Virus record (IMG/VR): IMGVR_UViG_3300023174_004685
Location: 1-35,337 of that record
Source: a virus
Strand: one strand, 5' to 3'
Length of the DNA: 35,337 nucleotides
How positions within the stretch are numbered: position 1 is the first letter of the stretch; every line of letters starts with the position of its first letter. Below are positions 697-28,861 of this stretch, piece after piece. Made by a program: the position numbers and the translations under genes. The notes under the pieces were generated by a model. The model ran no database searches, was not told the DNA's origin, and worked only from the letters and a program-made list of their open reading frames with translations.

Positions 697-706
697 CTGT
701 CAGATT

Positions 707-7437: not shown

Positions 7438-8686
7438 AAGAAATAAACTCTGGAGTTATTTTCTCAAAACATTGATCTCGAGTAGCATCTAATTTGTGAT
7501 TAAATTCTATACACTCTTGCCATTTATCGCTTTGATCGGTGGCATTAAGATAATTAATGACTCCGGAGATTTGTCCTTTAGTTAGATCAAGTAGCATAGG
7601 ATATTGTTGTACTAATTTAAAATCAGGCAACCTATCTTGCACATCAAACAAACGCTTGATTGCAATATCTTTTAAAGATGTCGGCAACACCTGTGCTGAC
7701 AATACATTGGGATAGTTGACCATATTAGTGTAAAATATAATGCCAAGCTCATCTAAAAATAATTCTATCATCTTATCAAGTATGAGAACATTGCTAACCT
7801 GCACAGCAACGGCTCCTACAATACGACTTACATTAGGAATGGTTTGTATTTGTTTAATGTTATTAACTAGTTCTGACCAACTAGCATTGCCACGAATATA
7901 CTCGTAACTATTACCAATACCATCAATACTAACATTAACAGCAACACTCTTAAACTTAGGCCAATACTGCCATACAGTTCGATTGCTCTTACCTAGCATA
8001 GTTAAGTTAGTGGCATACTTAATTTCAATATTGTCGCCGTATGGTGCAAGCATGTCTAAAATTTTATAATGTGTGGGATCCATTAATGGTTCTCCACCGG
8101 CAAATTCAACTCGTCTAAAATAGGGCAATAGTTTCTCAAAAGATTCCCACCAGTTAGGGGTATCCACAAAGCTGTCAAGGAACGGTTTATTTTTAAGATT
8201 AAGATCTATAATCTTTTGCACTAAAAAATTATCTTCTTTCTTATAATGTGTTTCAATAGTATCCCAATCGTTCCAACTGGTACTATCCATAGGATTACAC
8301 ATCCGACATTTAAGATTACACAAATTATTCATCTTAATTTCTATTGTGGGAATTTCAAAAGGCATTGTAAAATCGTGTCGCATGTTACTAATAGCATTAG
8401 GATATAATGTAATACGTGATTCTGGAATAACTCCTGCAATATGGCGCTGTCGTAAACTTTCAACTCCTTGATCTTCTAATGCAAAACACGGAGCACATTC
8501 TGGAGGACGTTCTCCTATCAATACCTGTCTACGGATACGAGTCATTGCCTCGCTGTTCCAGTGATATTCTAATGGGGCATCTTGTATAAAGCCAATGGGG
8601 TGGCTACGACAACATACTTTAATAGCACCGTCTTCTCGAGTAGCAAGTCCTGTAAAAGGATGCATACAGAATGTTTTACTTTGCAT
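7430..8686 (-). CDS. Radical SAM protein with N-terminal twitch-like Cys domain
   Basis: A 418-residue paralogue of the protein at 3210. The N-terminal module has FC7MHPFTGLATREDG, C25-C26 and C64/C67. The radical SAM motif is C123-NLK-C127-RM-C130 and the GGE is in EFAGGEPLMD. It starts inside the end of the QueC-like gene (11 nt overlap) and is followed by two FxxWxC-type radical SAM genes, so one operon carries both families, as the plus-strand operon at 707-5488 does. Confidence 0.85.
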   Translation of the reverse strand: MQSKTFCMHPFTGLATREDGAIKVCCRSHPIGFIQDAPLEYHWNSEAMTRIRRQVLIGERPPECAPCFALEDQGVESLRQRHIAGVIPESRITLYPNAISNMRHDFTMPFEIPTIEIKMNNLCNLKCRMCNPMDSTSWNDWDTIETHYKKEDNFLVQKIIDLNLKNKPFLDSFVDTPNWWESFEKLLPYFRRVEFAGGEPLMDPTHYKILDMLAPYGDNIEIKYATNLTMLGKSNRTVWQYWPKFKSVAVNVSIDGIGNSYEYIRGNASWSELVNNIKQIQTIPNVSRIVGAVAVQVSNVLILDKMIELFLDELGIIFYTNMVNYPNVLSAQVLPTSLKDIAIKRLFDVQDRLPDFKLVQQYPMLLDLTKGQISGVINYLNATDQSDKWQECIEFNHKLDATRDQCFEKITPEFISYV

Positions 8687-9386
8687 TGTCTATGCCCCAT
8701 TGGCGTTCCCTACACCAAAAACATTTACCGCATATTGGAACTGGTTGCCACGGTTTGTAATTACTATAATCTAAATTTTCAAATTCACCCTCGCAGCTAC
8801 GGGTAATATCAAACAATTCCCATAGATTAAATTTTTTGTATTGTGATACCACATAATCTTTATGGACTGTTGAATAAGGCTGGCAGGCAAATCCCCCCAA
8901 GTGTTCTTTTATAGATTGCATCGTACTGGTACCTATATTTCGGTCAACAGGCCCGCCAGTTACATCTGCCGGATTTAACGTGTCACCTGCATAGAATGCC
9001 GAGACTCCTTCTTTAATACAGATATACTCTGCATAACTGCGTGTGGTAATTTGATTACCGGTTTTAGGTCCTAATTGCAATCCTTCGAATTCGGGAGGAA
9101 TAAAACCTTCATGCCTAACAAATTTTATGTTAGGGAATTTTTTTACAAAATAGTCGAACACACTTAAACTATTATACTTTTGCCACGGTCTTGTTTTCCA
9201 CATTCTTACATTAGATATTATATGGATAGTTGTATCTTTGACCAGGGTACATAATTGATATGTCAACAACGCACTGTCTGCACCGCCACTTACACTTATA
9301 GCAATGTGTTTCCACGCAGGGTCGAACATGATATCTACTTCGTCAAAATTATGCAATATCACTTCCAATCTCCATTCATATGCCAT
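8676..9386 (-). CDS. QueC-like PP-loop ATPase (ATP-pyrophosphatase family)
   Basis: A 236-residue protein with the N-type PP-loop motif SGGADS at 33-38, which binds ATP and activates a carboxylate or amide by adenylation. The C-terminal C198, C219, C222 and C225 (CGKCFWC) match the zinc site of QueC, the 7-cyano-7-deazaguanine synthase. QueC is about this size. No other queuosine or archaeosine gene (folE, queD, queE, tgt) is recognisable in the window, so either the host supplies the pathway or the enzyme has another substrate. It overlaps the genes before and after it. Confidence is high for the fold and low for the exact substrate. Confidence 0.75.
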   Translation of the reverse strand: MAYEWRLEVILHNFDEVDIMFDPAWKHIAISVSGGADSALLTYQLCTLVKDTTIHIISNVRMWKTRPWQKYNSLSVFDYFVKKFPNIKFVRHEGFIPPEFEGLQLGPKTGNQITTRSYAEYICIKEGVSAFYAGDTLNPADVTGGPVDRNIGTSTMQSIKEHLGGFACQPYSTVHKDYVVSQYKKFNLWELFDITRSCEGEFENLDYSNYKPWQPVPICGKCFWCRERQWGIDNAK

Positions 9387-12465: not shown

Positions 12466-13009
12466 TTGATATCAGCATATTTGCTAGGGTGCTGTTTTTT
12501 TTGCCTTCTATATGATTAGGGGCATCAAGAGTATTAAATTTATCAAGAATAAAATCTAGTTCTACACCGTTTTTAAAATTATGGTATTTTTCAAAACACC
12601 ATAAATGTATAATTTTATTGTTGTTAGTGCTTAGTATATTATCAAAATACATAAGAGCACCTATAGTTTCAATTTTTGATTTTTCTTCGTCGTACAAATA
12701 CTCATAATACTTTTTACCGGCATCATATATTTTACGATTTTTTATTCTAATTAATCTATTGAAACTATTAGATTTCATACCTCGTACAGTTCTGTGGAAT
12801 AGTCTAGTATGTGACGTCCAACAAAACACAGAAATATCTGGCGGATTATTTATAAATGGTTTGTATTGTAATAAAATAGTGTCGAAGATATTTCCGCCGG
12901 GTATTCCAACATTAACTACTTCAGCAGTATAATGACTAGAGAGTAATTGTAAATAGCTTCCCTCAACGTTGTCGGCACAAAAACTATCGCCAAAAAATCC
13001 AATTCTCAT
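12449..13009 (-). CDS. SGNH/GDSL-type hydrolase
   Basis: A 186-residue protein beginning MRIGFFGDSFCAD. GDSF is block I with the nucleophile S9, VNVGIPGGN gives the oxyanion Gly/Asn (block II/III region), and DAPNH (162-166) is the likely Asp-His pair. SGNH enzymes remove acyl or acetyl groups from sugars, lipids or peptides. It has no signal peptide, so it should act in the cytoplasm. It is the last gene of the six-gene minus-strand operon from 17556, and its ATG overlaps the preceding stop (TAATG). Confidence 0.75.
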   Translation of the reverse strand: MRIGFFGDSFCADNVEGSYLQLLSSHYTAEVVNVGIPGGNIFDTILLQYKPFINNPPDISVFCWTSHTRLFHRTVRGMKSNSFNRLIRIKNRKIYDAGKKYYEYLYDEEKSKIETIGALMYFDNILSTNNNKIIHLWCFEKYHNFKNGVELDFILDKFNTLDAPNHIEGKKNSTLANMLISIIDKQ

Positions 13010-13812
13010 TAGTAGCTCTCTAAATGAGAAACACCTAAACTCTTTCGAAACTCTTCGGTGAACTTCCCGTCAATTCTTAATCCCCAACTTTGTTGCATCA
13101 GTCGGTCACCACCGTGCCAGTCTTGATCATTCCACCAAGCTGCACGACAGTTGATATAGGTACGACATTGTGTTGTTGGATCCCACAAATAGAAAGGTGC
13201 TTTTAAATTAGGACGGATATGTATAAATTCGTTACGATGAGGAGTGTATCCCTCCTGAAGTCCTTTATTACCATCTAGATCCCTATGTTCAAATGCTACT
13301 CCGTCTGCTTCTCTGTGGAAGAATATAACTCGACCGATATCTTCAAACACCGTGCCAATCATGCTTTCAATCCACTTGACAGTATTAGGAAAATGTACAG
13401 CTTCTTCAGTTAATTTTCTAGGAGCTGTTCTATCATCCCATGAGCCCTGTTCCCAAAGGAAATAATAGATATAAGGATCGTATGCACCCATGGCCATTTT
13501 AATGTATCGAGTAAAACGATTGCGTACCCGGAAATCTTGAAAATCTCTGTATAAATCAATTCCGCCTTGCTTAATAGGATCGTCATCTGGAAGTGCTAAA
13601 AATTCTTCAATGGCTTTATATATAGGTTTCCAGTTAGGAATATAACTCATATCTTCTATTCTAAAAGCAGGCTTCATCCAAGTGCCTTCCTTAGCAAATT
13701 CTCGTGCATCTGCAAATCCTCTATAGATCTCAGGTAATAGAGAATCAAATGTTTCTATATCGATATGTGGAGTTATATCGATATATGGAGTATTATTAAT
13801 ACCTTTTATCAC
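13009..13812 (-). CDS. 2OG-Fe(II) oxygenase-like protein
   Basis: A 267-residue protein with the triad H176-R-D178 (GVAFEHRDLDGNKG) and H233 (DWHGGD), and R246 (SWGLRIDGKF) for 2-oxoglutarate. The N-terminal 150 residues are longer than in the other oxygenases here and have no recognisable motif. The start overlaps the stop of the twitch-type radical SAM gene by 17 nt, and its own stop overlaps the SGNH gene by 1 nt. Confidence 0.75.
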   Translation of the reverse strand: MIKGINNTPYIDITPHIDIETFDSLLPEIYRGFADAREFAKEGTWMKPAFRIEDMSYIPNWKPIYKAIEEFLALPDDDPIKQGGIDLYRDFQDFRVRNRFTRYIKMAMGAYDPYIYYFLWEQGSWDDRTAPRKLTEEAVHFPNTVKWIESMIGTVFEDIGRVIFFHREADGVAFEHRDLDGNKGLQEGYTPHRNEFIHIRPNLKAPFYLWDPTTQCRTYINCRAAWWNDQDWHGGDRLMQQSWGLRIDGKFTEEFRKSLGVSHLESY

Positions 13813-15058
13813 ATTGTTCCTTTAAATCAATTAATTCTGGAAATGTTTTAAACATATCTTCATTGCGTATAACATCACGCTCTTCCATTGTTTTAAAAAA
13901 TTCGCTTAAATTCTCAGAGGTATCGTCGGCATACATCATCTGTAAAAAATCATCAATATCTTTGGTATTGTCTATTGTTAATTTATAATTATCCCAATGT
14001 TCCTTTACACGATTTTTATAATCAACAGTTAATGCATTTAATCCCATATTTGTAGGGTGACGTAAAAATACAAAACTTTGTTTTAGTTTATTATCTATAC
14101 ACCATTTATGTAATTTGGTGCATGCGAAACTATTTAAAATTTGTATTGTCGTGTATATTGTTAAGTCTACGTGAGGGCATTCTGTTTGAATCTTACGTAT
14201 GTTAGTAACAATGTCACTCCAGTTAGCAGGATTTCTAATATAGTAATTTTGTTCATCGTATGCGTCTAAACTTACATTCACGTAGACATGTTTAAAATGT
14301 TTCCATAATTTTAAAATATCATAATTTTTAAGAGTTAATCGAGTCATATTTGTGCAATAACGCAACACTATGTCTGTTCTATTATGTTCGATAAGCAACT
14401 CGAGCAATTTGTAATTTTCCTCCATCATCATAGGTTCTCCACCTTCGAACTTTATGTCCTCAGTAGTATCGATGTGCTGAATAAAAAAATCATATAATTT
14501 ATTAATATCATCAAATGACGAAATAAGAATAGCTGTAGGGTTTAGCTTGTCTTTAAATTTTTCAAATTGTATTTTATGTTCCGGAGAAATTTGCTTCATT
14601 GGCAAACTATATTTTACTTCTTCTTCTCTGTTAGTTGTGCTTAAAAAACTGTGACACATCCGGCATTTAAGATTGCATAAATTATTGTACCCGATGCCGT
14701 CCCATAATCTTATTTTAAATTCTTTTAGATTACCTTCTCGATCGAAATCAATATCATCGATGATATGTTTCCAGTTGTCATTGGCATGTGTCCTATGGCT
14801 TTCGGCTCCGGTTTGTTCATTAAACGAACATCGGTTACAGCTTGCTGGCAATTCAGGACCGTTGATCAATTGTTTACGAAAATCTCTTAATACGGTATTG
14901 GAGTTTGAATATATATCGTTAAGAGATTCTTTATCACTATTGCCAAATGCAATCTCGTGATTAATACAACATGGAACCACAGCACCGTGCCATATACGAG
15001 AACTTATGAATGGAAGAATACAAAAATGTCTTGATTCTATTAATTTATTCTTGTTCAT
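13796..15058 (-). CDS. Radical SAM protein with N-terminal twitch-like Cys domain
   Basis: A 420-residue protein, third paralogue of the 3210/7430 family. It has C13 in HFCILPFIS, C30-C31, C74/C77, the catalytic motif C128-NLK-C132-RM-C135, and FEGGEPMMM as the GGE. It lies between the degenerate kinase gene and an oxygenase gene, with overlaps on both sides. Confidence 0.85.
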   Translation of the reverse strand: MNKNKLIESRHFCILPFISSRIWHGAVVPCCINHEIAFGNSDKESLNDIYSNSNTVLRDFRKQLINGPELPASCNRCSFNEQTGAESHRTHANDNWKHIIDDIDFDREGNLKEFKIRLWDGIGYNNLCNLKCRMCHSFLSTTNREEEVKYSLPMKQISPEHKIQFEKFKDKLNPTAILISSFDDINKLYDFFIQHIDTTEDIKFEGGEPMMMEENYKLLELLIEHNRTDIVLRYCTNMTRLTLKNYDILKLWKHFKHVYVNVSLDAYDEQNYYIRNPANWSDIVTNIRKIQTECPHVDLTIYTTIQILNSFACTKLHKWCIDNKLKQSFVFLRHPTNMGLNALTVDYKNRVKEHWDNYKLTIDNTKDIDDFLQMMYADDTSENLSEFFKTMEERDVIRNEDMFKTFPELIDLKEQCDKRY

Positions 15059-15746
15059 AAATTCTTTTTGCTTTCTCTATAAAACTAGCCGGATAGTTAG
15101 TACGAAAACTTTCAAAACACAATTCTTGGAGTTTGTCTAGCGGCTGCGGTTTGTACCAGTCTAGACCCATTGCTTCTACCTGTTCGCGCATAATTTCTTG
15201 TCTTGTACTGTATATGTGGCTAGCATGATCTGCGATACTAATAGGACCTTCATTCTTATTGTATGTAAAAAAGTAATTGATACTTTTTAGTTTGCCGTCA
15301 ACAACAAAATAGCTGCTTGGATGCATACTAAATTTATAAAATCCTAAATTCTTGTGTATCTGTATAATGTTTAACATTTGTTCTTGCCAGTCTGGAAGAA
15401 CTTTATCATAGTTAGCAACATCGCACTGTGCAAGATTCCAAAAATCTGGACCATCTACTTCTAAGAAAATTTTCTTGTTATCTAACTCTATTTTTATAAT
15501 TTTAGGAACAAGTTCCGGAAATCTATTACGCATCTGTGTCAAGTAGTTTACTTCGCGTAACCATTTTTCTTCCATTTTATTAGGATCGACAACTTCATTT
15601 TTACCTTGATGATATTCGGTGTCGTTAAAGTACCACTGGACAAATGTTTTTTGATCATCCGACATTAAACTTGTGTAGATGAGATTGTTGCGACTTGGCT
15701 CTTGTCCGGGAACATTGTTGTAATAATAATTATATTGCGTATTCAT
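15045..15746 (-). CDS. Degenerate protein-kinase-fold protein (probable pseudokinase)
   Basis: A 233-residue protein that aligns with small bacterial kinases of the LPS-kinase/RIO type. An N-lobe part (KWLREVNYLTQMRNRFPELV, then KIFLEVDG) is followed by a catalytic-loop-like SMHPSSYFVVDGKLKSINYF. Against the usual DLHPGNILVDGGKLKLIDFG, the catalytic Asp is Ser140, the metal-binding Asn is Ser145 and the DFG Asp is Asn157. All three key residues are lost, so phosphotransfer is unlikely and a binding role is more probable. It overlaps the upstream radical SAM gene by 4 nt (ATGA). Confidence 0.55.
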   Translation of the reverse strand: MNTQYNYYYNNVPGQEPSRNNLIYTSLMSDDQKTFVQWYFNDTEYHQGKNEVVDPNKMEEKWLREVNYLTQMRNRFPELVPKIIKIELDNKKIFLEVDGPDFWNLAQCDVANYDKVLPDWQEQMLNIIQIHKNLGFYKFSMHPSSYFVVDGKLKSINYFFTYNKNEGPISIADHASHIYSTRQEIMREQVEAMGLDWYKPQPLDKLQELCFESFRTNYPASFIEKAKRIYEQE

Positions 15747-16939
15747 TTATAAAGTGTTAGTAAGTCTAATGGGCTCTTATCTGGATTACGATTGAACTTA
15801 TATCTCTCAGGTGGAGAATCTGGTAACATCAATCCTTTGTTCTTCCACACATCTCTTCGAATAATCTGATGCAAAAAATTTGTAATACCGTCAGGCACGA
15901 AATCACACCAAGGCCCTGATCTCAATTCCTCCATATCGATATCTGTTTCATCGCACCACTGAATAATACGTATATCTTTGCCTTCTACAGTAGCCATAAC
16001 GTGATAAATGTTGTTGTCGGCTTCTTTGATACGATTAAATGATTTGTCATTTTTCTCACACCAAGATGCTATAGCTTTGTAAACATCGCTAACAAAGATT
16101 CGTTCCTGTCCAGGATTACGGCCGATGTCGCTCCCGTAGCGAATTCTAAAGTTTTTACTTAACCATTCATTACTGCATATTTCTTTCATTATAAAATCAA
16201 CTTCGTCTAGCGACATCATAGTATAACTTATGTAACTGATACCCAAACTTTCTGAATGAATATTATTAATTGCAGATAATTGCTTTCTTCTAATAATTGC
16301 ATGATCGTTATAACTAGGATGATTTAACCCTACGTTAACACTGCTTAACCCGCTAGACTTTGCTTGCTTTACATAATCTAAATCAGAAAAGCATATTCCG
16401 TTGGTCATTACGGAAACGGTAATATTATGATCTAGTCTTTTGATTGATTCTACTAACTGATTAAAATCTTTTCGCAATGTAGGTTCTGCCCCACTAAGTA
16501 CGACTCTACATATAGCATCTTCTCCTAGCGGCCAATTCTTAATTTGTGACAAAATAGTTTCGATTGGTTGGTCTGTTAGACTGTTATCAGGTTCGTGATA
16601 GCAATGCGGGCATGTTAGATTGCATCGATCGGTTACTTCTATCAATACGCCGCCGTTGAAATTGTACTGCGGAATATCTTGTGTATAATAAATGCTAGAA
16701 TAAAATTCATAATCGCTTTCGATCATATGATGGCTTGTACCGTGTAACTTACAATGTTTAACCATGTAAACCTTTCCGTCTTTATGATACCGCCAAGCTG
16801 GTACATGACTGTGGCAGTGATGGCATAAACTTACGGTAGGTAATAAGATGTTACCTTCAATAGATACAATCTCGGCCCGTATTAAATCAATGGCAGATTG
16901 TGTAAACTGATTAAGTCCTTCAAAAGTAACACGCTTCAT
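15743..16939 (-). CDS. Radical SAM protein of the MJ0619/tetraether-synthase-like class
   Basis: A 398-residue protein. The N-terminus has a zinc/rubredoxin-like module, C39-HH-C42...DGKVYMVKHC63KLHG, characteristic of the MJ0619/Tes class. Then come the radical SAM motif C106-NLT-C110-PH-C113 and SGAEPTLR, where the family's GGE is GAE. Known members of the class do unusual C-methylation or C-C bond chemistry on lipids or cofactors. It overlaps both neighbours by 4 nt (ATGA), the upstream one being an oxygenase and the downstream one the degenerate kinase. Class membership is from memory of the N-terminal motif. Confidence 0.75.
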   Translation of the reverse strand: MKRVTFEGLNQFTQSAIDLIRAEIVSIEGNILLPTVSLCHHCHSHVPAWRYHKDGKVYMVKHCKLHGTSHHMIESDYEFYSSIYYTQDIPQYNFNGGVLIEVTDRCNLTCPHCYHEPDNSLTDQPIETILSQIKNWPLGEDAICRVVLSGAEPTLRKDFNQLVESIKRLDHNITVSVMTNGICFSDLDYVKQAKSSGLSSVNVGLNHPSYNDHAIIRRKQLSAINNIHSESLGISYISYTMMSLDEVDFIMKEICSNEWLSKNFRIRYGSDIGRNPGQERIFVSDVYKAIASWCEKNDKSFNRIKEADNNIYHVMATVEGKDIRIIQWCDETDIDMEELRSGPWCDFVPDGITNFLHQIIRRDVWKNKGLMLPDSPPERYKFNRNPDKSPLDLLTLYK

Positions 16940-17556
16940 ATAACTCCGTTTGTAGCTAACAATCTATTAACATATTTTTTATTCAATCTAAAAATAATTG
17001 TAACACGATCTTGTTTAGAACTGTTATAGGTATAATGCGGAACAGTAGTATCTAGCAAATAACTACTGCCGTCACTTTCTAAACAATATCCTGTATCCTT
17101 TTCTGAACTAACAAATGTAATTGCAACTCCTTCGGTATATATAGGAATCCACACAGTAATTTCATCTTCTTGATCACTATGCAGGCTGACCTTGCCACCC
17201 GGCATTTGAACACTTACTGCCCATCTGTAAGCATACGGTATTGCTGCCTGTAACCGTTCTATAATACCGAATGCTAATTCTGTGTTTCTATATTCAACGG
17301 TTTCTAATGTGCTGATATTCCAGGGAGGACACGGCAATGTTATATCTTTTAAATTGCTCTGTATAGCCCATCCGTGTGTTAATAGATTAGCAGAATCTGC
17401 ATAGGCAGCATCACGCCATTGTTTTACAACACTATTCCCACATTTGTCCCAGCTCCAATCTAAATGTTGAAATTTGGTATTGAGTATGTTATAATATTCA
17501 TGCAGTTCTTTAATGTCAACATTAAAATTTAATTTGGTTAGAATATTTTCCGTCAT
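16936..17556 (-). CDS. Aspartyl/asparaginyl beta-hydroxylase-type 2OG-Fe(II) oxygenase
   Basis: A 206-residue protein with H126-S-D128 (GGKVSLHSDQEDE), H174 (TTVPHYTYNSS) and R184 (DRVTIIFRL). This is a complete set of iron and 2-oxoglutarate ligands, and PGG..LH.D is typical of the branch. It leads the minus-strand operon 17556 to 12449 (oxygenase, radical SAM, pseudokinase, radical SAM, oxygenase, SGNH hydrolase). A late-type octamer precedes it. Confidence 0.8.
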   Translation of the reverse strand: MTENILTKLNFNVDIKELHEYYNILNTKFQHLDWSWDKCGNSVVKQWRDAAYADSANLLTHGWAIQSNLKDITLPCPPWNISTLETVEYRNTELAFGIIERLQAAIPYAYRWAVSVQMPGGKVSLHSDQEDEITVWIPIYTEGVAITFVSSEKDTGYCLESDGSSYLLDTTVPHYTYNSSKQDRVTIIFRLNKKYVNRLLATNGVI

Positions 17557-17560
17557 GCTA

Positions 17561-17568
17561 TATTTAAG
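17561..17568 (-). promoter_or_regulatory. Late octamer CTTAAATA
   Basis: Six of eight match to TATAAATA, 4 nt before the ATG at 17556, in a 36-bp divergent spacer. On the other strand the spacer has only CTATAAAA directly before the ATG at 17593, a weaker candidate. Confidence 0.45.
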
Positions 17569-17592
17569 TAAATAAACTGCTGCTATAAAAAA

Positions 17593-18204
17593 ATGTACAG
17601 ATACGACCTATCCAATACTGAAATTAAAATATACTACGAGACATGCCCGGAGTTCGAGGCCATACGAGAGATATGTTTACAAGAAGATAATTGGCTGCGT
17701 AAAAATTATATTAAAGAAAACTTAATAGTAGAACAACACACAGGCTACGGAGTAGTCTACCAAAAGTCCTCGGGCAAACCTATGGTAATGGGCGGAGTAT
17801 TCAATGACGGGCGTTATCCAAAAAATGTAGCTAAACAGATTAATCGACTTTATACATTTCCCGAGTTTAGGATGAAGCACACTGATATGACAGATGGCTT
17901 TAGGGTTACCTGTAGTTTGATTGACGCACTAGAAACAGTTAACGACTTTGACGTTTATTTGATCACTATGCAGAATAGACCACGTGGCGGCAAGCATTGG
18001 TGGGACACCTGGGTACATCATATGGATACCGCCAGTAACGGTAAATGGACATTAGGTACAGGCTATATTCAAACCTGCAATGCACAGGTACAAAAATGTT
18101 GGCAGAATTATGTTTACTACGAAACAAAACAGGGTGCATTCGATAAATGGGCTCCTATAATTATTAATGATGAAGGATGGGCAGCGATGCCTGAAGGTGC
18201 ATGA
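17593..18204 (+). CDS. Unidentified protein, possibly a GNAT-like acyltransferase
   Basis: A 203-residue protein. The central part (GYGVVYQKSSGKPMVMGGVF, then RLYTFPEFR) looks like the beta-strand pair and following strand of a GNAT or acyl-homoserine-lactone-synthase-like fold, but the R-x-x-G-x-G/A acetyl-CoA loop is not evident. It is the first gene of a plus-strand operon with a desaturase, a sulfotransferase and a radical SAM protein, which would fit a role in making or loading an acyl chain. That is inference only. Confidence 0.45.
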   Translation: MYRYDLSNTEIKIYYETCPEFEAIREICLQEDNWLRKNYIKENLIVEQHTGYGVVYQKSSGKPMVMGGVFNDGRYPKNVAKQINRLYTFPEFRMKHTDMTDGFRVTCSLIDALETVNDFDVYLITMQNRPRGGKHWWDTWVHHMDTASNGKWTLGTGYIQTCNAQVQKCWQNYVYYETKQGAFDKWAPIIINDEGWAAMPEGA

Positions 18205-18968
18205 ATTTAAATACCAAAGTTAGATTACTACAGACATTTAATCATATAGCAACAATTCCTGCTATTGCTTATGCGGTCTATACACAACAATATTATCTAT
18301 TCGCGATTGCGTTTGTATCTTGGTTGATAATTGGTCCTATTAGCAGTGTTATTACCCTACATAGATTATTAACTCATCGCAGTTTTAAAACTTATGATTG
18401 GCTAGAAACTGCACTAAGTTACATTAGCGTTATATCTACACTAGGCCCTACTATTAGTTGGGTGGCACTACATCGACAACATCATGCTGCATCGGATAGG
18501 GTAGGTGATCCTCACAGTCCGTATGTTGATAGTAAATTTAATATTAAACAGGCAATCAAAGTATGGCTAGGATATGAATGGCAGATTCCAAATATACCAG
18601 TTGCCTATGTTAAAGATTTGATGCGTAGCCCAACCCATAAGTTTATTTTTAATAATTACTTTAAAATTATTTTTGCATTTTCATTAGTTTTATTTTTACT
18701 CGATCCTATGCTATGGCTGTTTGTTTATGTAGTGCCTGCTAGTATGACTGTACACCTCATAGGTGTTGTTAACGTGTTGGGTCACGGACACGGATACCGG
18801 AATCACGAAACTGCCGATAAGAGCACCAATAGCTGGATTGCTAATATTGTTAGTCTAGGTGATGGGTGGCATAACAACCATCATGCCAATGCTGGAAACT
18901 TTCATACAGGAGAGAAGTGGTGGGAGTGGGATTTAATGGGCGGCATTATTCAGATCATTAAAAAGTAA
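18201..18968 (+). CDS. Membrane fatty-acid desaturase (delta-9 type)
   Basis: A 255-residue integral membrane di-iron desaturase. The three histidine boxes are H54RLLTH59, H91RQHH95 and H224NNHH228. Hydrophobic stretches lie at about 17-50, 72-90 and 150-190. The arrangement and short length match bacterial DesC/delta-9 acyl-CoA or acyl-lipid desaturases. It would introduce a double bond into membrane or carrier-bound acyl chains. It is coupled to the upstream gene by a 4-nt ATGA overlap and to the sulfotransferase by TAATG. Confidence 0.9.
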   Translation: MNLNTKVRLLQTFNHIATIPAIAYAVYTQQYYLFAIAFVSWLIIGPISSVITLHRLLTHRSFKTYDWLETALSYISVISTLGPTISWVALHRQHHAASDRVGDPHSPYVDSKFNIKQAIKVWLGYEWQIPNIPVAYVKDLMRSPTHKFIFNNYFKIIFAFSLVLFLLDPMLWLFVYVVPASMTVHLIGVVNVLGHGHGYRNHETADKSTNSWIANIVSLGDGWHNNHHANAGNFHTGEKWWEWDLMGGIIQIIKK

Positions 18969-19573
18969 TGGGTACATTTTATATTCCTAAACCAGAACTT
19001 AGTTACATACATGTACCTCGAACCGGTATGGCTATGAAGAAGATAATCAGTGATTGGCTTAAGCCTAACTTCAATGTAATTGATGAAGACCCGTGGATGA
19101 TTAATCATCCTAATTTGCAAATGGTTCGAGAGCACATACCTACAGGAAAAACATTGAGTATTGTTCGCAACCCTTGGCAACGTGTCTATAGTTTTTATCG
19201 TAAAATAAGTACAGAAGGTTATTGGTTAGATTGGAATGGAAAAACTTTATTAGATTTAAAACCGATAAACGAGTGGGTAGCAGATTATTGCGATCCGACA
19301 GTACCGTTTGAATTTCCTAGATGGTTTAATAAATCAACGAATCAAATAGAGTTTTTAAACTATAACGGTAAATGGGTTGATTTTATTATCAAAGCAGAAG
19401 ATCTTGAAATAGGATTTAAACCAGTACAAGAATACTTAGAATGTAAAATTCCATTGCCCGATATCTCCGGATACGATCATTGGGAGTTTAAAAAGTATTT
19501 CAATGATGCTAGTATCCGGGCTATAGCAACAGTTCATGAACGGGATATAGACTTTTTTAAATACAGTATATGA
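18968..19573 (+). CDS. Sulfotransferase-family protein (PAPS-dependent)
   Basis: A 201-residue protein with the two PAPS loops of family 2 (carbohydrate-type) sulfotransferases. The 5'-phosphosulfate loop is YIHVPRTGMAMKK (13-25), with Arg18 where Lys is usual. The 3'-phosphate loop is SIVRNPWQRVYSFY, with R67 and S75. It would transfer sulfate to a hydroxyl or amine, typically on a sugar or lipid, using host PAPS. It overlaps the following radical SAM gene by 4 nt. Confidence 0.8.
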   Translation: MGTFYIPKPELSYIHVPRTGMAMKKIISDWLKPNFNVIDEDPWMINHPNLQMVREHIPTGKTLSIVRNPWQRVYSFYRKISTEGYWLDWNGKTLLDLKPINEWVADYCDPTVPFEFPRWFNKSTNQIEFLNYNGKWVDFIIKAEDLEIGFKPVQEYLECKIPLPDISGYDHWEFKKYFNDASIRAIATVHERDIDFFKYSI

Positions 19574-20532
19574 AATCTCGATTAAAGTATACAGAAGTAT
19601 ATATTACCAATGTATGTAACTATAGTTGCACCAACTGTCAAAGTCTAAATAATTTTGCTTTCAAGGGGCATCAACTATGGGACGATTACTGTAGCGAGTA
19701 TACGGCTCTAAGTAATCTTATTGATTTTGATACTATTCAAATTATAGGCGGAGAGCCAACACTGAATCCAGAGTTTGAAAAATGGGTCAGCGGTATTTCT
19801 AAATTGTGGCCTAATGCTAAATTGCAAATTGCTACCAACGGAACACGCCTTGATAAACTAACAAAAAGCATTTATCAAATATTATCAAAAAACAACGGAA
19901 CACTTTGGATAACGTGTCACGATATACAGCTATATGACAGGTTCTTAGATTTTTCTAAAGCATTTCTTAACAATATCGTATCGGACACAGTTGATAACGA
20001 GTGCGATTTTAAGAGTGAATATGAACAATCTAAAATTGATTCAACAGTAAAATTAAAAACAGTATCTAGAAAGTTAATTGATAACCGAGGAGTTGAAGTA
20101 ATACTTGATTGGTCTCAGTCATTTGTGCCAAGTTCAATAACTGTGCTAGACAATCAACGCCTAGCAATGAAATATAATAGCGATCCGTCTCAAGCCCATG
20201 ATATCTGTTATTTTAAAACATGTCATCAAATAAACAAAGGAAAGCTATACAAATGTCCGTTAGTTAGTGTGTTACCGGATTTCTTAGATCAATTTGATAT
20301 TGATATGTCCGACGATGATAGAGCATTAGCATATTCTTATAAACCGCTAACTGCTGACAGAGATGTTGCTGAATTTGTTAATGGCATACACGATGCTATA
20401 CCTCAATGTAAGTTTTGTCCTAGCAAATATATCAAACATAATTTTGTAGGGACAGAAAAAAAGATTAAAATTGTTTCACGTGATCAGGTGATCCAGTCAC
20501 CGAGTGTTAATGCTTCTTCAAGATCTTTGTAG
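19570..20532 (+). CDS. Radical SAM protein
   Basis: A 320-residue protein with C16-NYS-C20-TN-C23, QIIGGEPTLNP, and a C-terminal Cys set (HDICYFKTC, LYKCPL, PQCKFCPSKY) consistent with a SPASM-like auxiliary cluster. It does not belong to either paralogue family in the window. It ends the plus-strand operon, and its last 49 nt overlap the convergent halogenase gene, the longest such overlap here. Confidence 0.85.
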   Translation: MKSRLKYTEVYITNVCNYSCTNCQSLNNFAFKGHQLWDDYCSEYTALSNLIDFDTIQIIGGEPTLNPEFEKWVSGISKLWPNAKLQIATNGTRLDKLTKSIYQILSKNNGTLWITCHDIQLYDRFLDFSKAFLNNIVSDTVDNECDFKSEYEQSKIDSTVKLKTVSRKLIDNRGVEVILDWSQSFVPSSITVLDNQRLAMKYNSDPSQAHDICYFKTCHQINKGKLYKCPLVSVLPDFLDQFDIDMSDDDRALAYSYKPLTADRDVAEFVNGIHDAIPQCKFCPSKYIKHNFVGTEKKIKIVSRDQVIQSPSVNASSRSL

Positions 20533-21908
20533 TCTTTGAGTTTTGCCCGAGTTCTGTTTTTCCATAGCTCGTATCTTTCGGCCATGCCATCGGTTATTGA
20601 TTTTTCTGCTACTTCTTTACTAAACTTTCCAAGACCTGCTAGGACGTGATTCCATGCTCTATAACTTAGATTGTTATACGGATTTGGAATGTCTTCCTCA
20701 GTTAACAACCTAGTCTTAGCAATTTCTAAAATCTCATCCACACGAGGAGTTGAAACAGTACTAACATATTTCCAAAATTCTGTATCGTCTCTACCACCTT
20801 TATAGTGCAATACAATAAAATCTTTTATGTCATCATATAACTTAGACATGTCTGTATTATAAAGATCCTTAGATGATTGATTTTTTAAAGATTCTCCTAA
20901 AGAATCTATTTGAATTTTTGTAGCATGAATACTTGTGGCTTCTAGAGGTTCCACAAACGCACCTGCTAACCCCAATGCTACACAATTTTTATGCCATAAA
21001 TTTTCTAATCTACCAGCTTCGAAATTTATATGCTTGGCTGGATTAATATCAACTTCTGGATAACGATTTTCTAATTCTGTAATTGCTTCGTCATAGTTGA
21101 TAAATTTATCACAGTAAACATACCCGACTCCTACTTTATCAAATAATGGTATGTTCCAAGTCCAGCCAGCTATACGTGCTTCTGCGCCAGTGAATATTCC
21201 TATAGGTCTTTTATAGGGAATTCTAAAAGGAACTGCGCTATTCATAACAAGACAATCGCTGTATGAAATCCATTTATTATCTAACTTATTCATTAGCAAT
21301 TTTTTAAAACCAGTGCAGTCAACATACAAGTCGCCGTCGACTGAAATACCATCTTCTAATATTAAACTCGTTATACCGCTTTCATTTATATTAACTTCGG
21401 TGACTACACTGTCTATTACTTGAACATTTTCACATTTACCCTTTAACCATTTGCCGACTAGATGTCCGTCGAAGTGATAACTCCATTCTGTTTCGGTCCA
21501 TACTCCAGTTTCGTCTTTTCTTATAGGTACTTTATCTTCGCTTATGAATAATCCTAATGGGGATACTTCGTGTATGTTTTTATTTTGCGAAATTAACAAG
21601 GGTAAGAAGTCCTCCCTATCTGTGTTCGGGAGTATATCAAGAGGTAGGTAATAGGTATTTGGCCATCCTCGATGCTGAACCGCAATTTTCATACTACCCT
21701 GCGTTTCCTCCATGAATTCTCTAGGACTGAAACCAATATCGCTGTTGCTGTTAATTAATGAGCCTATGACATGGGTGCCACCTTCACCTACACCGATAAT
21801 ACCTATTTTACTAGATTCTATTACTGTAACTGAATGTTTGTAAAATTTACTTAATATTAATGCAGCTAACCAACCTGCAGTACCACCGCCAACTATTACT
21901 ATCTTCAT
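20484..21908 (-). CDS. Flavin-dependent tryptophan-halogenase-family protein
   Basis: A 474-residue protein with the FAD-binding GGGTAGWLAA (7-16), the VGEGG segment, and Lys74 (QGSMKIAVQ) at the position of the catalytic lysine of PrnA. It also has the halogenase signature GWTWNIP and a late ENLWHKNCVALGLAGAFVEP segment leading into PLEATSIH. Length is near that of PrnA (about 540) or slightly short. It would chlorinate or brominate an indole or phenol using reduced FAD from a host reductase. Similar prnA-like genes are known in T4-like cyanophages. The substrate could be tryptophan, a peptidyl Trp or something else. Confidence 0.85.
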   Translation of the reverse strand: MKIVIVGGGTAGWLAALILSKFYKHSVTVIESSKIGIIGVGEGGTHVIGSLINSNSDIGFSPREFMEETQGSMKIAVQHRGWPNTYYLPLDILPNTDREDFLPLLISQNKNIHEVSPLGLFISEDKVPIRKDETGVWTETEWSYHFDGHLVGKWLKGKCENVQVIDSVVTEVNINESGITSLILEDGISVDGDLYVDCTGFKKLLMNKLDNKWISYSDCLVMNSAVPFRIPYKRPIGIFTGAEARIAGWTWNIPLFDKVGVGYVYCDKFINYDEAITELENRYPEVDINPAKHINFEAGRLENLWHKNCVALGLAGAFVEPLEATSIHATKIQIDSLGESLKNQSSKDLYNTDMSKLYDDIKDFIVLHYKGGRDDTEFWKYVSTVSTPRVDEILEIAKTRLLTEEDIPNPYNNLSYRAWNHVLAGLGKFSKEVAEKSITDGMAERYELWKNRTRAKLKDYKDLEEALTLGDWIT

Positions 21909-24023: not shown

Positions 24024-24821
24024 ATGCTTCCACATAAACATCTTTTAGTTAGGGCAGAAATTGCCAACCATATATCAGACACTGATGAGATATCAAGTTG
24101 GATTTCAAAGTTAGTAGAAACAATCCAAATGAAAATTTTGCACGGACCTGTTTCGGTATACTGTGATAAGTCCGGAAATCGAGGTATGACATCGTTCGTT
24201 ATAATCGAAACCAGTCATATTGTTCTGCACACTTGGGATGAAACCACTCCGGCAACGCTGCAACTAGACGTTTACACCTGTTCGGAATTAGAAATAGATT
24301 CTGTGTTTAAAGCTCTTTCTATTTTTCAACCCATAACAATAGACTACAAGTTTTTAGACAGGGAGCAAGGATTTTCAGAAATTACAGACTTGCCGACTCG
24401 AGTAGTAGAAAAGTGGGTGAATAAAATATCTAAGAAACATACAGACCTTGGAGGTAATCGTATCTGTCCGTTTGCTAAAATGCCACGTGTTGTGTCTGTA
24501 GAAAAATTATGTCTGTCTGAGTTTGCAGGTATTGATGATCAACTTACTGTTTATATGGAAAACGGAGTTCGTAGTAGCTATGATGAATTGGAAGAAATTT
24601 GTAGAATTCTTAAAAGCCTTAATCCTAATTTTGTATTCCTACCCGACCACCCACATAAGCCAAATTATATTAAAGGATACGAAACTGGCAACGGAGTATT
24701 TCCTTGTATTATTGTACAGACCGCACAAGAGTTAACGTCAGCTAGATCTGCGTTGGAAAAAACTGATTATTATCAGTACTGGGACCAAGACTATCTAGCT
24801 GAGATACGAAGCTTTGATTAA
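24024..24821 (+). CDS. SpeD-like (S-adenosylmethionine decarboxylase-type) domain fused to an unknown domain
   Basis: A 265-residue protein. Residues 4-115 match bacterial SpeD: Ser64-His65 followed by H69TW, and LQLDVYTC86, at the spacing of the pyruvoyl Ser, catalytic His and Cys of class 1b AdoMetDC. The Glu that precedes the self-cleaved Ser in SpeD is Thr63 here, so self-processing may be changed. Residues 125-265 form a second domain with NRIC148PFAK, recalling CPFA-type domains of unknown function (DUF1415-like), and DHPHKPNYIKGYETG. SpeD makes the aminopropyl donor for polyamines; here it could supply an aminopropyl group to another product. It overlaps the amidinotransferase gene by 4 nt. 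Confidence 0.65.
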   Translation: MLPHKHLLVRAEIANHISDTDEISSWISKLVETIQMKILHGPVSVYCDKSGNRGMTSFVIIETSHIVLHTWDETTPATLQLDVYTCSELEIDSVFKALSIFQPITIDYKFLDREQGFSEITDLPTRVVEKWVNKISKKHTDLGGNRICPFAKMPRVVSVEKLCLSEFAGIDDQLTVYMENGVRSSYDELEEICRILKSLNPNFVFLPDHPHKPNYIKGYETGNGVFPCIIVQTAQELTSARSALEKTDYYQYWDQDYLAEIRSFD

Positions 24822-25894
24822 ATTATAGATCTACGATCGCCACGACGTTTTGTGTCGAGAGTAGAACAATGTATTCCTCCTTCCCAAAACAACATATGGC
24901 GTTGCTCGCATGTATGGCATTCAATTCCGAATGTTTTTAAATATTGAAATAGTTCAGGAAGTTCCCGTCCAAATACTATGTTGTTTCGATCAATAATTAA
25001 CACATTAAGATCGAAACATACATCTTGATTATACCCTCTCCAATTGTCTAGGTATTGATCAATCCATGCTAGATTATACCTTCCACCTGCGCTAATGTAA
25101 TCTTGTTTATACTGGGCAGTGTTTGGCTTAGGGACATATTGCTCGACGTCAATAAGTTTGAGATGGCGAAGAGCCTGAGGTACCCAATTTATTCCTGCGT
25201 GTATAACTGTTTCATCGTCGATCATAATAAACCCGTGATCAATGTGACCGTAGTTATTGGCATGACAATTAGTGTTTTCTATAAAATCAAATTCCGGAAG
25301 ATTTCTTTTAATCCATTCGTAGCCTAGTGCATTTCCCGGGCCTTTGGCATTTATAATAATTTTGTCTCCTACAGGAAACATAGTAGCTGTGTGAAACAAC
25401 ACTCGATCTTTTAATTTTGTATCATATATAGATCCGTTTTCATTCCAGACATACCATAGGTCTGCCGGAGTCACAGGTACCAAGGGAGGAGCTGGTTGAC
25501 TTACCCAGTTATATCCTTGTAGGAACATATCTGCAAATATTTTGTAATAACTCAACCCATCAAAATATCTATCAGTAAGACTTGTGTATGTCTGAAGAAT
25601 AGTGTTGCCTTGCACTTTATACTGATCTCTAGGCACTGTCGGCCCCATAGGAAATTTAACATCGAACCCGCTCATGTGGATATGATCAGGATATTTCATA
25701 ACTTCAGGTCTGCAAACTCTTATGCCGCCTTTAATTAAGAAGTCGGACAGATTGTCAAAATCTTGTTTGGTTTCCTCTAATATTCGATTAAACGATGATA
25801 ACGATTTGTCGGGAAACAAATGATCTAAATCACCAGGCAGATACGAGTCTGCTACAATAACCTCTTCTAGCGGATCGTACTCTGTGAAAACCAT
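24818..25894 (-). CDS. Amidinotransferase (glycine/inosamine amidinotransferase-like)
   Basis: A 358-residue protein of the arginine:glycine amidinotransferase fold. It begins with YDPLEEVIVAD, has the central GHIDHGF His region, and ends with WEGGIHC343STLDTKRRG, where Cys343 is the nucleophile that carries the amidino group. It would move an amidino group from arginine to an amine, making a guanidino compound. It overlaps the aminotransferase gene upstream by 28 nt, which suggests that the aminotransferase makes the acceptor amine. Confidence 0.8.
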   Translation of the reverse strand: MVFTEYDPLEEVIVADSYLPGDLDHLFPDKSLSSFNRILEETKQDFDNLSDFLIKGGIRVCRPEVMKYPDHIHMSGFDVKFPMGPTVPRDQYKVQGNTILQTYTSLTDRYFDGLSYYKIFADMFLQGYNWVSQPAPPLVPVTPADLWYVWNENGSIYDTKLKDRVLFHTATMFPVGDKIIINAKGPGNALGYEWIKRNLPEFDFIENTNCHANNYGHIDHGFIMIDDETVIHAGINWVPQALRHLKLIDVEQYVPKPNTAQYKQDYISAGGRYNLAWIDQYLDNWRGYNQDVCFDLNVLIIDRNNIVFGRELPELFQYLKTFGIECHTCEQRHMLFWEGGIHCSTLDTKRRGDRRSII

Positions 25895-26997
25895 CTTAAA
25901 TTATCCTTTAATACATCAAAATATTCTTCAGTAGCATTTACTGGAATTATATAAAAAATCTTTTCGTGGCCGTTGGAAACTTTAAAGTGTAGGCCAAAGT
26001 TACTCTTAATTTTGTAGTCGCTGTTTTCAAATACTGCTGTGGCTTTTTTTACTAGTTCGTCGTGATTGACTAATAGATTGTCTCTCTCTAAAATATCTAA
26101 ATATTTCATAGCACTAGCAATACCTGCTAGACTAAAGCAGTAGGTAAATCCGTGTTCCCATCTAAAATCTTTTGGAAGAGAATCCTCGATTCGTTTGTTG
26201 TATAATAACATGCTCAATGGAAAAAATCCTGCAGTTATTGCTTTGCCCATCGTAGAAATATCGGGTTCTATATTAAAATTCTTCCAACCAACATAATTTC
26301 CAGTTTTACCACCGCCCATAAATATGTCATCAATAATTATTAACACATCGTATTGTTGTCGTATTCGATCTAACCTTTCCCAAAACTCAGGACTTGGCGG
26401 AATCATATCTGCACCGTAGGCACAGGTTTCGATCATTATAGCGGCTACAGAATTCCAATCAACGCAATCATCGGTAAAATCTCTAGGTATACGTTTTACT
26501 GATTGATACGGGTCCATGGTATAAAAAGGTTTATCCATAAAGTTATCATGACCCACACTCATGGTTAACCAAGTACTGCCGTGATAGCTTTTTTCAAAAC
26601 CTACAATAATTTTTTTGTGATGATTGCCTTTTTGATAGTGATAAGCACTTGCTAATTTAATTGCACCTTCGTTGGCATCAGAACCACTGAGTGAGAAAAA
26701 TTGTTTCATTCCAGTTAATTTATAAATTCTTTCAGAGAACTCAAAACTAATATGATTTAATCTAATATCGTAAGTTCTTGGCATGAAAGGTTCTGCTATC
26801 TCTGGCTTATTATTTTTAACAACTTCTGTGACAAAATCTATAATTTCTTCATTTTCATAACCCAGTACAAAACATCCATAATGCAATATAGGATCAATCA
26901 TTTTCATGCCATTTCTTACATCACCGTATTTCCATCGAGGCAAGGGCAGTTCAACTTGCTGTTGTTGTATGTTTGGTATCAGTCCTTGATATTTCAT
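25867..26997 (-). CDS. Class III PLP-dependent aminotransferase
   Basis: A 376-residue protein with SGSDANEGAIKLA (104-116, phosphate site), SYHGSTW (137-143), IIIDDI (221-225, with the Asp that pairs with the pyridine nitrogen) and MGK252AITAGFFP with the Schiff-base lysine. Family length is about 420, so it is slightly short but complete. It is of the glutamate-1-semialdehyde aminomutase / omega-aminotransferase type. It is coupled to the oxygenase upstream (4-nt overlap) and the amidinotransferase downstream. Confidence 0.85.
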   Translation of the reverse strand: MKYQGLIPNIQQQQVELPLPRWKYGDVRNGMKMIDPILHYGCFVLGYENEEIIDFVTEVVKNNKPEIAEPFMPRTYDIRLNHISFEFSERIYKLTGMKQFFSLSGSDANEGAIKLASAYHYQKGNHHKKIIVGFEKSYHGSTWLTMSVGHDNFMDKPFYTMDPYQSVKRIPRDFTDDCVDWNSVAAIMIETCAYGADMIPPSPEFWERLDRIRQQYDVLIIIDDIFMGGGKTGNYVGWKNFNIEPDISTMGKAITAGFFPLSMLLYNKRIEDSLPKDFRWEHGFTYCFSLAGIASAMKYLDILERDNLLVNHDELVKKATAVFENSDYKIKSNFGLHFKVSNGHEKIFYIIPVNATEEYFDVLKDNLRWFSQSTIR

Positions 26998-27715: not shown

Positions 27716-28861
27716 TTAGTGTAGTGCTACCCAGCTAGTGCCGTCATATACTACAGCCTTGTTAGTTACAGCTGGACTAGTGCCAGCAGTCATGAATACC
27801 ATCATTCCTTTTACAGGGGCAGCAATAGCTGATGTGCGAGCGGCATCGTTAGCATAAACTGCGAGCTGTGTATACTTACTAGCAACAAACGCATTTGCGG
27901 TTACAACACCTGCAGAATTGAGAATTAATGCATCTGCCTCAGCAGCGCCTGAGTCAGTAGAAGCAGAGATAATTGCTTTGGATTTAATAAAACTTCCGCC
28001 GGCGATAACCGCAGTTGGGTCAACTAAAAATCCAAACGTTCCGGCAAGGGCTGTGGTTGTAGTATTAGAATATGCGTTAATTATCACTCCGCCTAGTTCG
28101 TCGCCTGCCTGTACTGCTGCTGGAGAACTCAGGGTTCCTCTGCCCATCACTAAACTAATAAACTTTCCATTTACCCCAGTTATTGGCTGTTGAATTTGTA
28201 AATTACTACTTAAATTTAAATTTAAAGCTAAAGGGTCTGCTGATGTACCCATGCTAAATGTTGTCAACGAAGTAAGACTAGTTGAATTTATAGTTGTATT
28301 ACCAGTGTCGATCGTACCGTAAAAAATTCTGTCAATTGCGTCAACTAACAGACTTGAATCATCAGCAAATACTGAACCTTTGATATCACCAGTATGGAAC
28401 CCTGCTGTACTACCCGTAACGTTGCCGGTTAAATTACCCGTAACATTACCTGTTAAATTACCTGTAACGTTACCTGTTAATGTACCTATATGCTGGCCTC
28501 TGAGTACTCCGTCTACAGCATCTACTAACAGCGTGGAATCGTCAGCAAAAATAGAACCCTTGAAAGATGTTGCCCCAATAGTTCCTTGATAATTAGCTAG
28601 ATCAACCACAGCATTTAAACTAGCAGATGCATCATTGTATGTGAAGGTTATCCCAGTGTGTGTGCCGTTGCTAAAAAGTTGAGCGGTGGCATCTTGTGCA
28701 TCTTCATTGGTATACCCTGTGATTTGAACACCGCCTAATGTAGAGCCGTTTCCTACATATAATCTCTGTGCGTTGGTCACATACAGCAGCTCACCTTGAG
28801 CCAGCGGCTGTGTCATCGCTAATCTTTCAGCATCTGTGCCCCTGCGAATCTGTAATGGCAT
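27716..28861 (-). CDS. Phage tail-fibre / receptor-binding type protein
   Basis: A 381-residue protein. The N-terminus MPLQIRRGTDAERLAM, then GELLYVTNAQRLYVGNGST, is the phage tail-fibre N-terminal domain common in T4-like marine phages. Residues about 128-148 are a TGN(V/L) repeat, and two near-identical segments (GSIFADDSTLLVDAVD and GSVFADDSSLLVDAID) flank it, so part of the shaft arose by duplication. The C-terminus is Thr/Ala/Gly-rich. It has a good leader with CCAGGAG 9 nt before the ATG and its own late promoter. Confidence 0.8.
   Translation of the reverse strand: MPLQIRRGTDAERLAMTQPLAQGELLYVTNAQRLYVGNGSTLGGVQITGYTNEDAQDATAQLFSNGTHTGITFTYNDASASLNAVVDLANYQGTIGATSFKGSIFADDSTLLVDAVDGVLRGQHIGTLTGNVTGNLTGNVTGNLTGNVTGSTAGFHTGDIKGSVFADDSSLLVDAIDRIFYGTIDTGNTTINSTSLTSLTTFSMGTSADPLALNLNLSSNLQIQQPITGVNGKFISLVMGRGTLSSPAAVQAGDELGGVIINAYSNTTTTALAGTFGFLVDPTAVIAGGSFIKSKAIISASTDSGAAEADALILNSAGVVTANAFVASKYTQLAVYANDAARTSAIAAPVKGMMVFMTAGTSPAVTNKAVVYDGTSWVALH
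28331..28560. repeat. Internal repeats of the tail-fibre gene
   Basis: Three tandem 24-nt units occupy 28416-28439, 28440-28463 and 28464-28487, encoding the TGNV-TGNL repeat. On either side lie two imperfect 50-nt direct copies (28331-28380 and 28511-28560), encoding the duplicated FADDS-LLVDA segments. Such repeats allow length change by recombination. Confidence 0.8.

Follow-up and report, generated by a model that had tools for sequence, protein, structure and literature searches.

Fatty acid desaturases encoded by phages were reportedly described by Roitman et al. in 2018. As far as the accessible sections of the papers cited here and below go, single phage desaturases have been read as genes for membrane fluidity or lipid metabolism (PMC7300359, PMC7678222), and on a pelagiphage scaffold the desaturase lies beside tetrapyrrole genes (PMC11480375); neither a GNAT-fold or sulfotransferase partner nor tandem arrays are mentioned in these sections. 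Likewise, sulfotransferase-family genes are counted among the viral auxiliary genes, the accessible part of the source mentioning no link to a desaturase or GNAT protein (PMC12285232), and Campylobacter phages CP220 and CPt10 carry many radical SAM genes in one exchangeable module, again with no mention of a linked desaturase, GNAT or sulfotransferase gene in the accessible text (PMC2853527). In the ornithine-lipid pathway (OlsB, OlsC/OlsD, OlsE), an N-acyltransferase is followed by separate hydroxylases of chain or head group (PMC3972451). Here, a virus record of 35,337 bases (IMGVR_UViG_3300023174_004685, positions 1 to 35,337), possibly a fragment and analyzed over its whole length as the window, is described in which a GNAT-fold putative transferase (P1), a membrane desaturase (DES) of the same superfamily as the published phage enzymes and a small predicted sulfotransferase (ST) form a conserved three-gene module, embedded in an island with many radical SAM genes like that of CP220 and CPt10. 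While phage desaturases and radical SAM islands are already known, no description of the P1-DES-ST module was found in the part of the literature covered.

Four open reading frames (ORFs) between positions 17593 and 20532 encode P1, DES, ST and a radical SAM protein in one direction with successive overlaps of 4, 1 and 4 bases, and the coordinates, sizes and coupling given in a first-pass annotation, made from the letters alone, proved exact. The ratio of nonsynonymous to synonymous substitution rates (dN/dS), determined for P1, DES and ST, has medians of 0.062 for P1 (range 0.026-0.453, 28 usable sequence pairs), 0.057 for DES (24 pairs) and 0.065 for ST (35 pairs), and because of these low values the three behave as real genes. 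Linkage was assessed from three search starts, namely DES alone, ST alone and a P1 profile, many of the retrieved contigs being near-duplicates. With DES as query, 24 loci were found; 23 of them have P1 no more than 60 bases away, and in the last, where an SGNH-like gene is inserted, the distance is 683 bases. Among the 35 loci found with ST, DES is located within 60 bases in 26 and on the same strand at 0.8-2.9 kb in six; in the remaining three, the contig ends within 126 bases on the DES side. The P1 profile retrieved 58 loci, 50 of them with DES downstream on the same strand within 22 bases (overlapping or abutting in 45) and one with DES after 674 bases, two in which the sole desaturase lies upstream on the opposite strand and five without a desaturase, one of the latter being explained by a contig end. 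Dereplication of P1 at 95% identity left 39 loci, the window included, and within a neighbor range of 9 kb DES is present in at least 35 of them, whereas ST, the divergent hydroxylase-like AspHc, the conserved protein 'kin', AspHa and the gene at 13009-13812 are each present in at least 22 (lower bounds due to contig ends). Finally, a DES profile search yielded 160 phage relatives, the best 80 of which were analyzed: P1 lies within 120 bases upstream of 33 of the 34 desaturases with at least 50% identity and at 683 bp from the other, compared with 12 of the 46 less similar ones, plus one having P1 elsewhere. Accordingly, of the four genes that had been proposed as coupled, P1, DES and ST are conserved neighbors, the radical SAM gene is an unstable member, and the divergent hydroxylase-like gene has to be added.

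DES is assigned to PF00487 well above the family cut-off (E 3e-19, 70.1 bits versus 29.7), its nearest solved relatives are acyl-CoA desaturases (PDB 4ymk, E 1e-11), and hydrophobic stretches at residues 26-57, 72-90 and 147-195 fit a membrane protein. Of the residues that we take to be the di-iron ligands, the nine histidines are unchanged in all 52 sequences and the one asparagine is conserved in 45 of 52; family match and intact histidine set thus bear out the desaturase named in the earlier annotation. The best 80 of at least 584 confirmed bacterial relatives are only 30-37% identical to DES, so that no close bacterial source was seen. Two to five desaturase-family paralogues, mostly in tandem, are encoded at 19 of the best 80 phage desaturase loci, a count made without dereplication and including several near-identical loci. 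Five consecutive desaturases, each with HxxxxH and HxxHH boxes, are encoded in one of these (L294, 2439-6178), while a few paralogues elsewhere are without one of the histidine boxes when judged by a simple pattern. Four consecutive and differing desaturase-family genes each were counted in L297, L280 and L281 and three each in L287 and L288, L280/L281 and L287/L288 being close pairs. Such arrays make little sense without repeated modification of one chain and therefore favor iterative acyl-chain tailoring over peptide chemistry. They are the best new support for tailoring of an acyl chain, with desaturase-family hydroxylases acting on other substrates as a possible counter-reading.

For P1, no credible family match was obtained in Pfam, PHROG or NCBIfam, and comparison with PDB by sequence gave nothing credible; ColA_N, APOBEC_C, SoxD and DesK, appearing at E 0.04-0.7, were dismissed as chance matches. 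Proteins of the GNAT fold have the order b1-a1-a2-b2-b3-b4-a3-b5-a4-b6/7, and this order of strands and helices is found in the AlphaFold2 model of P1 built from 16 sequences (predicted local distance difference test, pLDDT, 84.8; predicted template modeling score, pTM, 0.81). In a Foldseek search of this model against PDB, GNAT-type acetyl- and acyltransferases rank on top (best E 1e-5), albeit at modest TM-scores of 0.34-0.51 by query length, and VIA-align gives a Z of 11.1 over 145 residues at 3.7 Å, with Z of at least 8 for 556 of 997 chains. The predicted structure hence makes the GNAT fold of P1 a firm assignment. Comparison with viral fold matches also revealed one viral protein 46% identical to P1. 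In GNAT proteins, motif A (Q/R-x-x-G-x-G/A) binds the pyrophosphate of acyl-coenzyme A (acyl-CoA). The strand-4 segment of P1, which presumably corresponds to the start of this motif, carries Arg93, invariant in all 58 sequences and part of an equally invariant core of R85, R93, R129, V166, Q167, C169, Q171 and N172. The 58 P1 loci were found in viral contigs; in bacterial genome contigs, none of 77 pattern stretches was confirmed, in a short-peptide-pattern scan that can miss distant relatives. At the limits used (E≤0.01 for P1, E≤0.001 for 'kin'), P1, ST, AspHc, 'kin' and a methyltransferase-like protein of the window have no match in the 50,697 INPHARED phage records. So far, the P1 family is thus seen as a phage-only GNAT-fold family and is the most unusual part of the module. 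Of the four P1 loci lacking a desaturase for reasons other than a contig end, three share the P1 stretch and upstream sequence, and the longest contig among them is T4-like (capsid, portal). P1 without a recognized desaturase is seen, for example, on a T4-like contig (L098:3480-9082; Gp23, Portal_T4), where the neighbors are, by eye, a 2-oxoglutarate (2OG)-type protein, a carbamoyltransferase-like gene and a second GNAT-like gene.

The sequence of ST alone remains below the cut-off of Sulfotransfer_2 (E 0.035, 14.7 bits versus 22), and nothing relevant was obtained against PDB by sequence, whereas among 26 aligned ST members 23 match this family at E≤1 (best E 7e-6) and 16 match Sulfotransfer_3 at the same limit. 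With the ST model (pLDDT 88.2), Foldseek ranks 1-33 are all sulfotransferase chains, the best at E 5e-3 and none reaching 0.001, and VIA-align gives a Z of 10.0 to heparan sulfate 6-O-sulfotransferase (178 residues, 3.6 Å). The motifs P-R-T-G and R-x-P-x-x-R-x-x-S are invariant in 36 of 36 sequences, as are the individual residues P17, R18, T19, G20 and K24 as well as R67, P69, R72 and S75, which we assume to lie at the 5'-phosphosulfate-binding (5'-PSB) and 3'-phosphate-binding (3'-PB) motifs for 3'-phosphoadenosine 5'-phosphosulfate (PAPS). The sulfotransferase identity is hence corroborated at the level of the fold, with the family match contributed by the ST members and not by the window protein. 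The remark that a membrane desaturase beside a sulfotransferase is uncommon in phages holds for annotated phage records and less so for uncultured phages.

Between the divergent genes for P1 and AspHc lie 36 bases in which the near-palindrome TATTTAAGTAAATA reads as NTAAATA in each direction. Of the 58 contigs, 13 have the exact 14-mer upstream of P1, and a further 18 have a variant of the form TATTTA-N1-3-TAAATA there. Across 62 relative contigs and the window, NTAAATA lies within 60 bases upstream of 129 of the 174 distinct divergent gene starts, which stem from related contigs and do not count as independent, compared to a mean of 19.5 and a maximum of 33 in mononucleotide shuffles. Counted redundantly in the 62 contigs alone, the box precedes 154 of 208 divergent but only 16 of 549 operon-internal starts; in the window alone, the values are six of eight and one of 19, respectively. 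T4-type late promoters read TATAAATA, and because of the resemblance of the NTAAATA boxes to these the island is probably expressed late in infection. T4-type capsid or portal families were detected in only one of 15 relative contigs, all of them possible fragments, so that T4-like capsids are not what the late-box reading is based on. The late-regulator family phrog_254 gave no match anywhere, including the controls, and this search was uninformative.

Table 1. Features of the P1-DES-ST locus and its divergent neighbors (positions in the window; functions predicted).
Feature	Position	Strand	Length	Assignment
P1	17593..18204	+	203 aa	GNAT-fold, putative N-acyl/acyl transferase with degenerate motif A
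DES	18201..18968	+	255 aa	membrane di-iron fatty-acyl desaturase, PF00487, acyl-CoA desaturase 1 type
ST	18968..19573	+	201 aa	small PAPS-type sulfotransferase (predicted)
Radical SAM protein	19570..20532	+	320 aa	PF04055; lineage-specific operon addition
Divergent spacer	17557..17592		36 bases	TATTTAAGTAAATA, back-to-back NTAAATA late-promoter-like boxes
AspHc	16936..17556	-		Asp/Asn beta-hydroxylase-like (2OG/Fe), divergent partner of P1; PF05118 below cut-off
Radical SAM protein with HMPTM-type zinc ribbon	15743..16939	-		overlaps AspHc; PF04055 and PF23545 above cut-off
'kin'	15045..15746	-		conserved protein, pseudokinase-like by eye; belongs to island; 22 of 39 non-redundant P1 loci

The fourth gene of the operon (Table 1) is indeed a radical SAM gene (E 7e-9, 36.6 versus 29.5 bits), with the CxxxCxxC motif present as CNYSCTNC. 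However, a scan with this gene located it at the same position in one other locus only, and on contig 3300017917_000554 a relative with 58% identity is separated from ST by about 6.8 kb, on the downstream side and past a tail-fibre-like gene, so that the family called earlier is confirmed and membership in a conserved module is not. AspHc stays below the PF05118 cut-off (E 9.5e-4, 19.5 bits versus 22.6) and has no NCBIfam match; the radical SAM protein overlapping it hits the NCBIfam Tes model at E 5e-21, far below the model cut-off. 'kin' reads by eye as an APH-type kinase in which, we presume, the catalytic His-x-Asp and DFG are replaced (KFSMHPSSYF...INYFF), possibly a pseudokinase. In total, the island of about 27 kb encodes ten radical SAM proteins over the Pfam cut-off, located at 665-8686 and 13796-20532 and hence within 20 kb; the one at 7430-8686 also passes the cut-off of the twitch radical SAM model NF033640 (323 bits versus 170). 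Several Asp/Asn-hydroxylase-like or 2OG-type proteins, one over cut-off, belong to the island as well, as do the tryptophan-halogenase-family protein, the AdoMet decarboxylase and the class III aminotransferase described below. Past this enzyme island follow a tail-fibre-like gene, a phosphoesterase gene and ten tRNAs, the tail-fibre label (27716-28861) being given by eye with only a weak PHROGs match to an unknown family. In seven of 35 ST loci, no more than 60 bp separate ST from a tail-fibre-like gene, which is found at larger distances in others.

Several other genes were noticed in the window. Convergent with the operon, a tryptophan-halogenase-family protein is encoded at 20484-21908 on the minus strand (E 8e-96), with relatives among the 62 contigs at 88% identity in one and 29% matches in two more. 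At 24024-26997, genes for an AdoMet decarboxylase, an amidinotransferase-like protein (by eye, with no family match) and a class III aminotransferase adjoin, which suggests polyamine or guanidino chemistry. The protein at 8676-9386 on the minus strand is a PP-loop protein with a CGxCxxC tail recalling, by eye, QueC, the matches being limited to weak ones to PP-loop and TilS families; weak relatives of it occur near desaturases in four of 19 distant phage loci (L282, L291, L301, and L302).

Within INPHARED, the single match to DES is from Pelagibacter phage Mosig. The island of Mosig EXVC030M (MT647606, about 54-71 kb) encodes a homologous desaturase (hhalign E 6e-25) as well as hydroxylase-, methyltransferase-, SGNH-like and radical SAM homologues at 20-31% identity, the weakest at E 2.5e-4 in what was a small comparison. 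Since direct comparison finds weak Mosig homologues of the methyltransferase-like protein and AspHc, lack of an INPHARED match does not exclude distant relatives. In Mosig, an AspH-like and the desaturase gene are arranged in tandem behind TATAAATA boxes, with TATAAATATTTATATAAATA in front of the pair, and the island adjoins radical SAM-type genes and genes annotated as tail fibres, as the island of the window adjoins the tail-fibre-like gene. However, gene order is different and neither P1 nor ST has a match among 26 Mosig ORFs; a GNAT-annotated Mosig gene is unrelated to P1 (hhalign probability 0.2). The Mosig island resembles the 'host recognition cluster' of pelagimyophages, which count an Asp/Asn hydroxylase among their core proteins (PMC7029224, accessible sections). 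Elsewhere, the window protein at 665-1684 has 22% matches in Campylobacter phage CP21. Among ten large ORFs scanned in a 265-kb relative of the module contigs, the terminase is 52% identical to that of PA5oct/MIJ3/Phosso-type jumbo phages, and by this sequence likeness the window may come from such a phage, whereas the phosphoesterase and a 124-aa protein pointed to no single phage group. As to the ornithine-lipid pathway, OlsB is GNAT-like, OlsC/D are AspH-like and OlsE is desaturase-like. The scheme proposed below would operate in the manner of such an aminolipid pathway. However, P1 matches no acyltransferase family, a sulfotransferase is added and no OlsA-like gene was noticed, and as P1 does not fall into the OlsB-type family the module is not assigned to this pathway.

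Our preferred explanation, to which we give a probability of roughly 45%, is that P1-DES-ST is an acyl-chain tailoring module of large aquatic phages, sharing a late divergent promoter with the 2OG hydroxylase-like gene. Directly supported are the genes, the predicted folds, the active-site residues of DES and ST, the linkage, the selection and the enrichment of promoter boxes, and from these we infer how each reaction proceeds, in which order, on which substrate and when, and what the module is for. P1 would join an acyl chain to amine-bearing acceptors or move it between them, whereupon DES would add a double bond, or a hydroxyl, to the chain attached by P1. Hydroxylation of the chain or of the head group may be the task of AspHc, and ST would sulfate a hydroxyl with host-derived PAPS. 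Such a pathway would end in an acyl conjugate, unsaturated and sulfated, that is located in the host envelope or on the virion. The acylated, desaturated and sulfated molecule proposed in the first-pass annotation agrees with the GNAT fold, the desaturase family, the sulfotransferase fold and the linkage; less in line with it are the degenerate acyl-CoA motif and a module of three genes.

Several findings weigh against acyl-chain tailoring. None of the acyltransferase family models in Pfam and NCBIfam is matched by P1 or 16 P1 members, and at the motif A positions, read from a single alignment, glycine is found in 0 of 58 sequences at the first (+3) and Gly/Ala in five of 58 at the second (+5). 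The first-pass annotation had considered its idea refuted if the GNAT-like first protein, to be assigned by structure prediction, proved unrelated to acyl transfer: the prediction gave the fold, but most of the motif A glycines are missing and the acyl-CoA motif is degenerate. P1 may work with a different donor or have an unusual way of binding CoA. Furthermore, P1 occurs without a recognizable desaturase in four of 58 loci (1.0-6.5 kb beyond P1 examined), ST was found in only 22 of the 39 non-redundant P1 loci and is absent from many P1-DES loci, and near 31 of the 46 phage desaturases below 50% identity P1 is absent from the stretch examined (which is too short to tell in two more), from which it follows that phage desaturases are broader than the P1 module. 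Finding the genes separately in related phages had likewise been named as contrary evidence; this is not the case for close relatives, P1 adjoining DES in 33 of 34, and is the case for many distant ones. A gene for PAPS or an acyl donor was not identified, no systematic search having been made, and relatives of DES include hydroxylases of non-lipid substrates. An island mostly of radical SAM and 2OG-type proteins suits peptide or cofactor chemistry equally, and freshwater pelagimyophages carry a stearoyl-CoA desaturase but, according to the accessible sections, no radical SAM genes (PMC7029224).

The strongest competitor is an island concerned mainly with the maturation of a peptide, tail fibre or cofactor (radical SAM, twitch/SPASM, 2OG hydroxylases, halogenase). 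The acyl step would then be secondary: the substrate of DES and P1 would be an intermediate that is held in the membrane or prenyl-like, and ST would sulfate the peptide or a glycan. In favor of such an island, about 27 kb encode the ten radical SAM proteins, several hydroxylase-like proteins and the tryptophan-halogenase-family protein; the protein passing the NF033640 cut-off and the tail-fibre-like gene close to ST in seven of 35 loci point the same way. Nevertheless, we consider it somewhat unlikely, given a membrane enzyme of the fatty-acyl desaturase family, sometimes in tandem arrays; a precursor peptide was not identified either, although no systematic search was made. Many phage desaturases without P1 or ST, together with the published interpretation of phage desaturases as fluidity genes (PMC7300359, PMC7678222, accessible sections), would fit DES being an ordinary auxiliary membrane-fluidity gene with P1 and ST as unrelated passengers fixed by operon structure. 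A passenger, however, is not expected to stay as close to DES as P1 does (no more than 120 bp away in 33 of 34 loci, which span 54-87% identity), nor would a passenger P1 be expected under purifying selection about as strong as that on DES, which renders this explanation improbable. Very improbable is a P1 acting as a Mom-like or tRNA-like nucleic-acid-modifying GNAT whose linkage to DES is incidental: phage Mom protein does appear among the viral fold matches of P1 (rank 4, E 6e-5), and on the T4-like contig P1 without DES lies near helicase-like and carbamoyltransferase-like genes (labels by eye), but Mom is no nearer to P1 than many other GNATs, and the frequent pairing of P1 with an integral membrane enzyme argues against nucleic acid modification.

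Many uncultured aquatic phages thus appear to carry a linked lipid-chain module whose chemistry is predicted. Within it, P1 poses a concrete puzzle, a GNAT fold with invariant residues yet without the CoA-binding glycines, and Mosig on Pelagibacter, as a cultured distant relative, offers a laboratory entry point. DES as a member of a multi-gene module, with arrays of up to five desaturases in distant relatives, contrasts with the single-gene membrane-fluidity reading (PMC7300359, PMC7678222, accessible sections). In a bolder and doubtful version of acyl-chain tailoring, the phage-only GNAT-fold family, perhaps with acyl-acyl carrier protein, would together with the desaturase(s), the hydroxylase and the sulfotransferase constitute a late pathway for a polyunsaturated, hydroxylated and sulfated lipid or lipopeptide decorating virion or host envelope. 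If true, such decoration might, for example, block competing phages, and should the product prove to be a lipid of phage manufacture, phages would count as makers of dedicated natural products.

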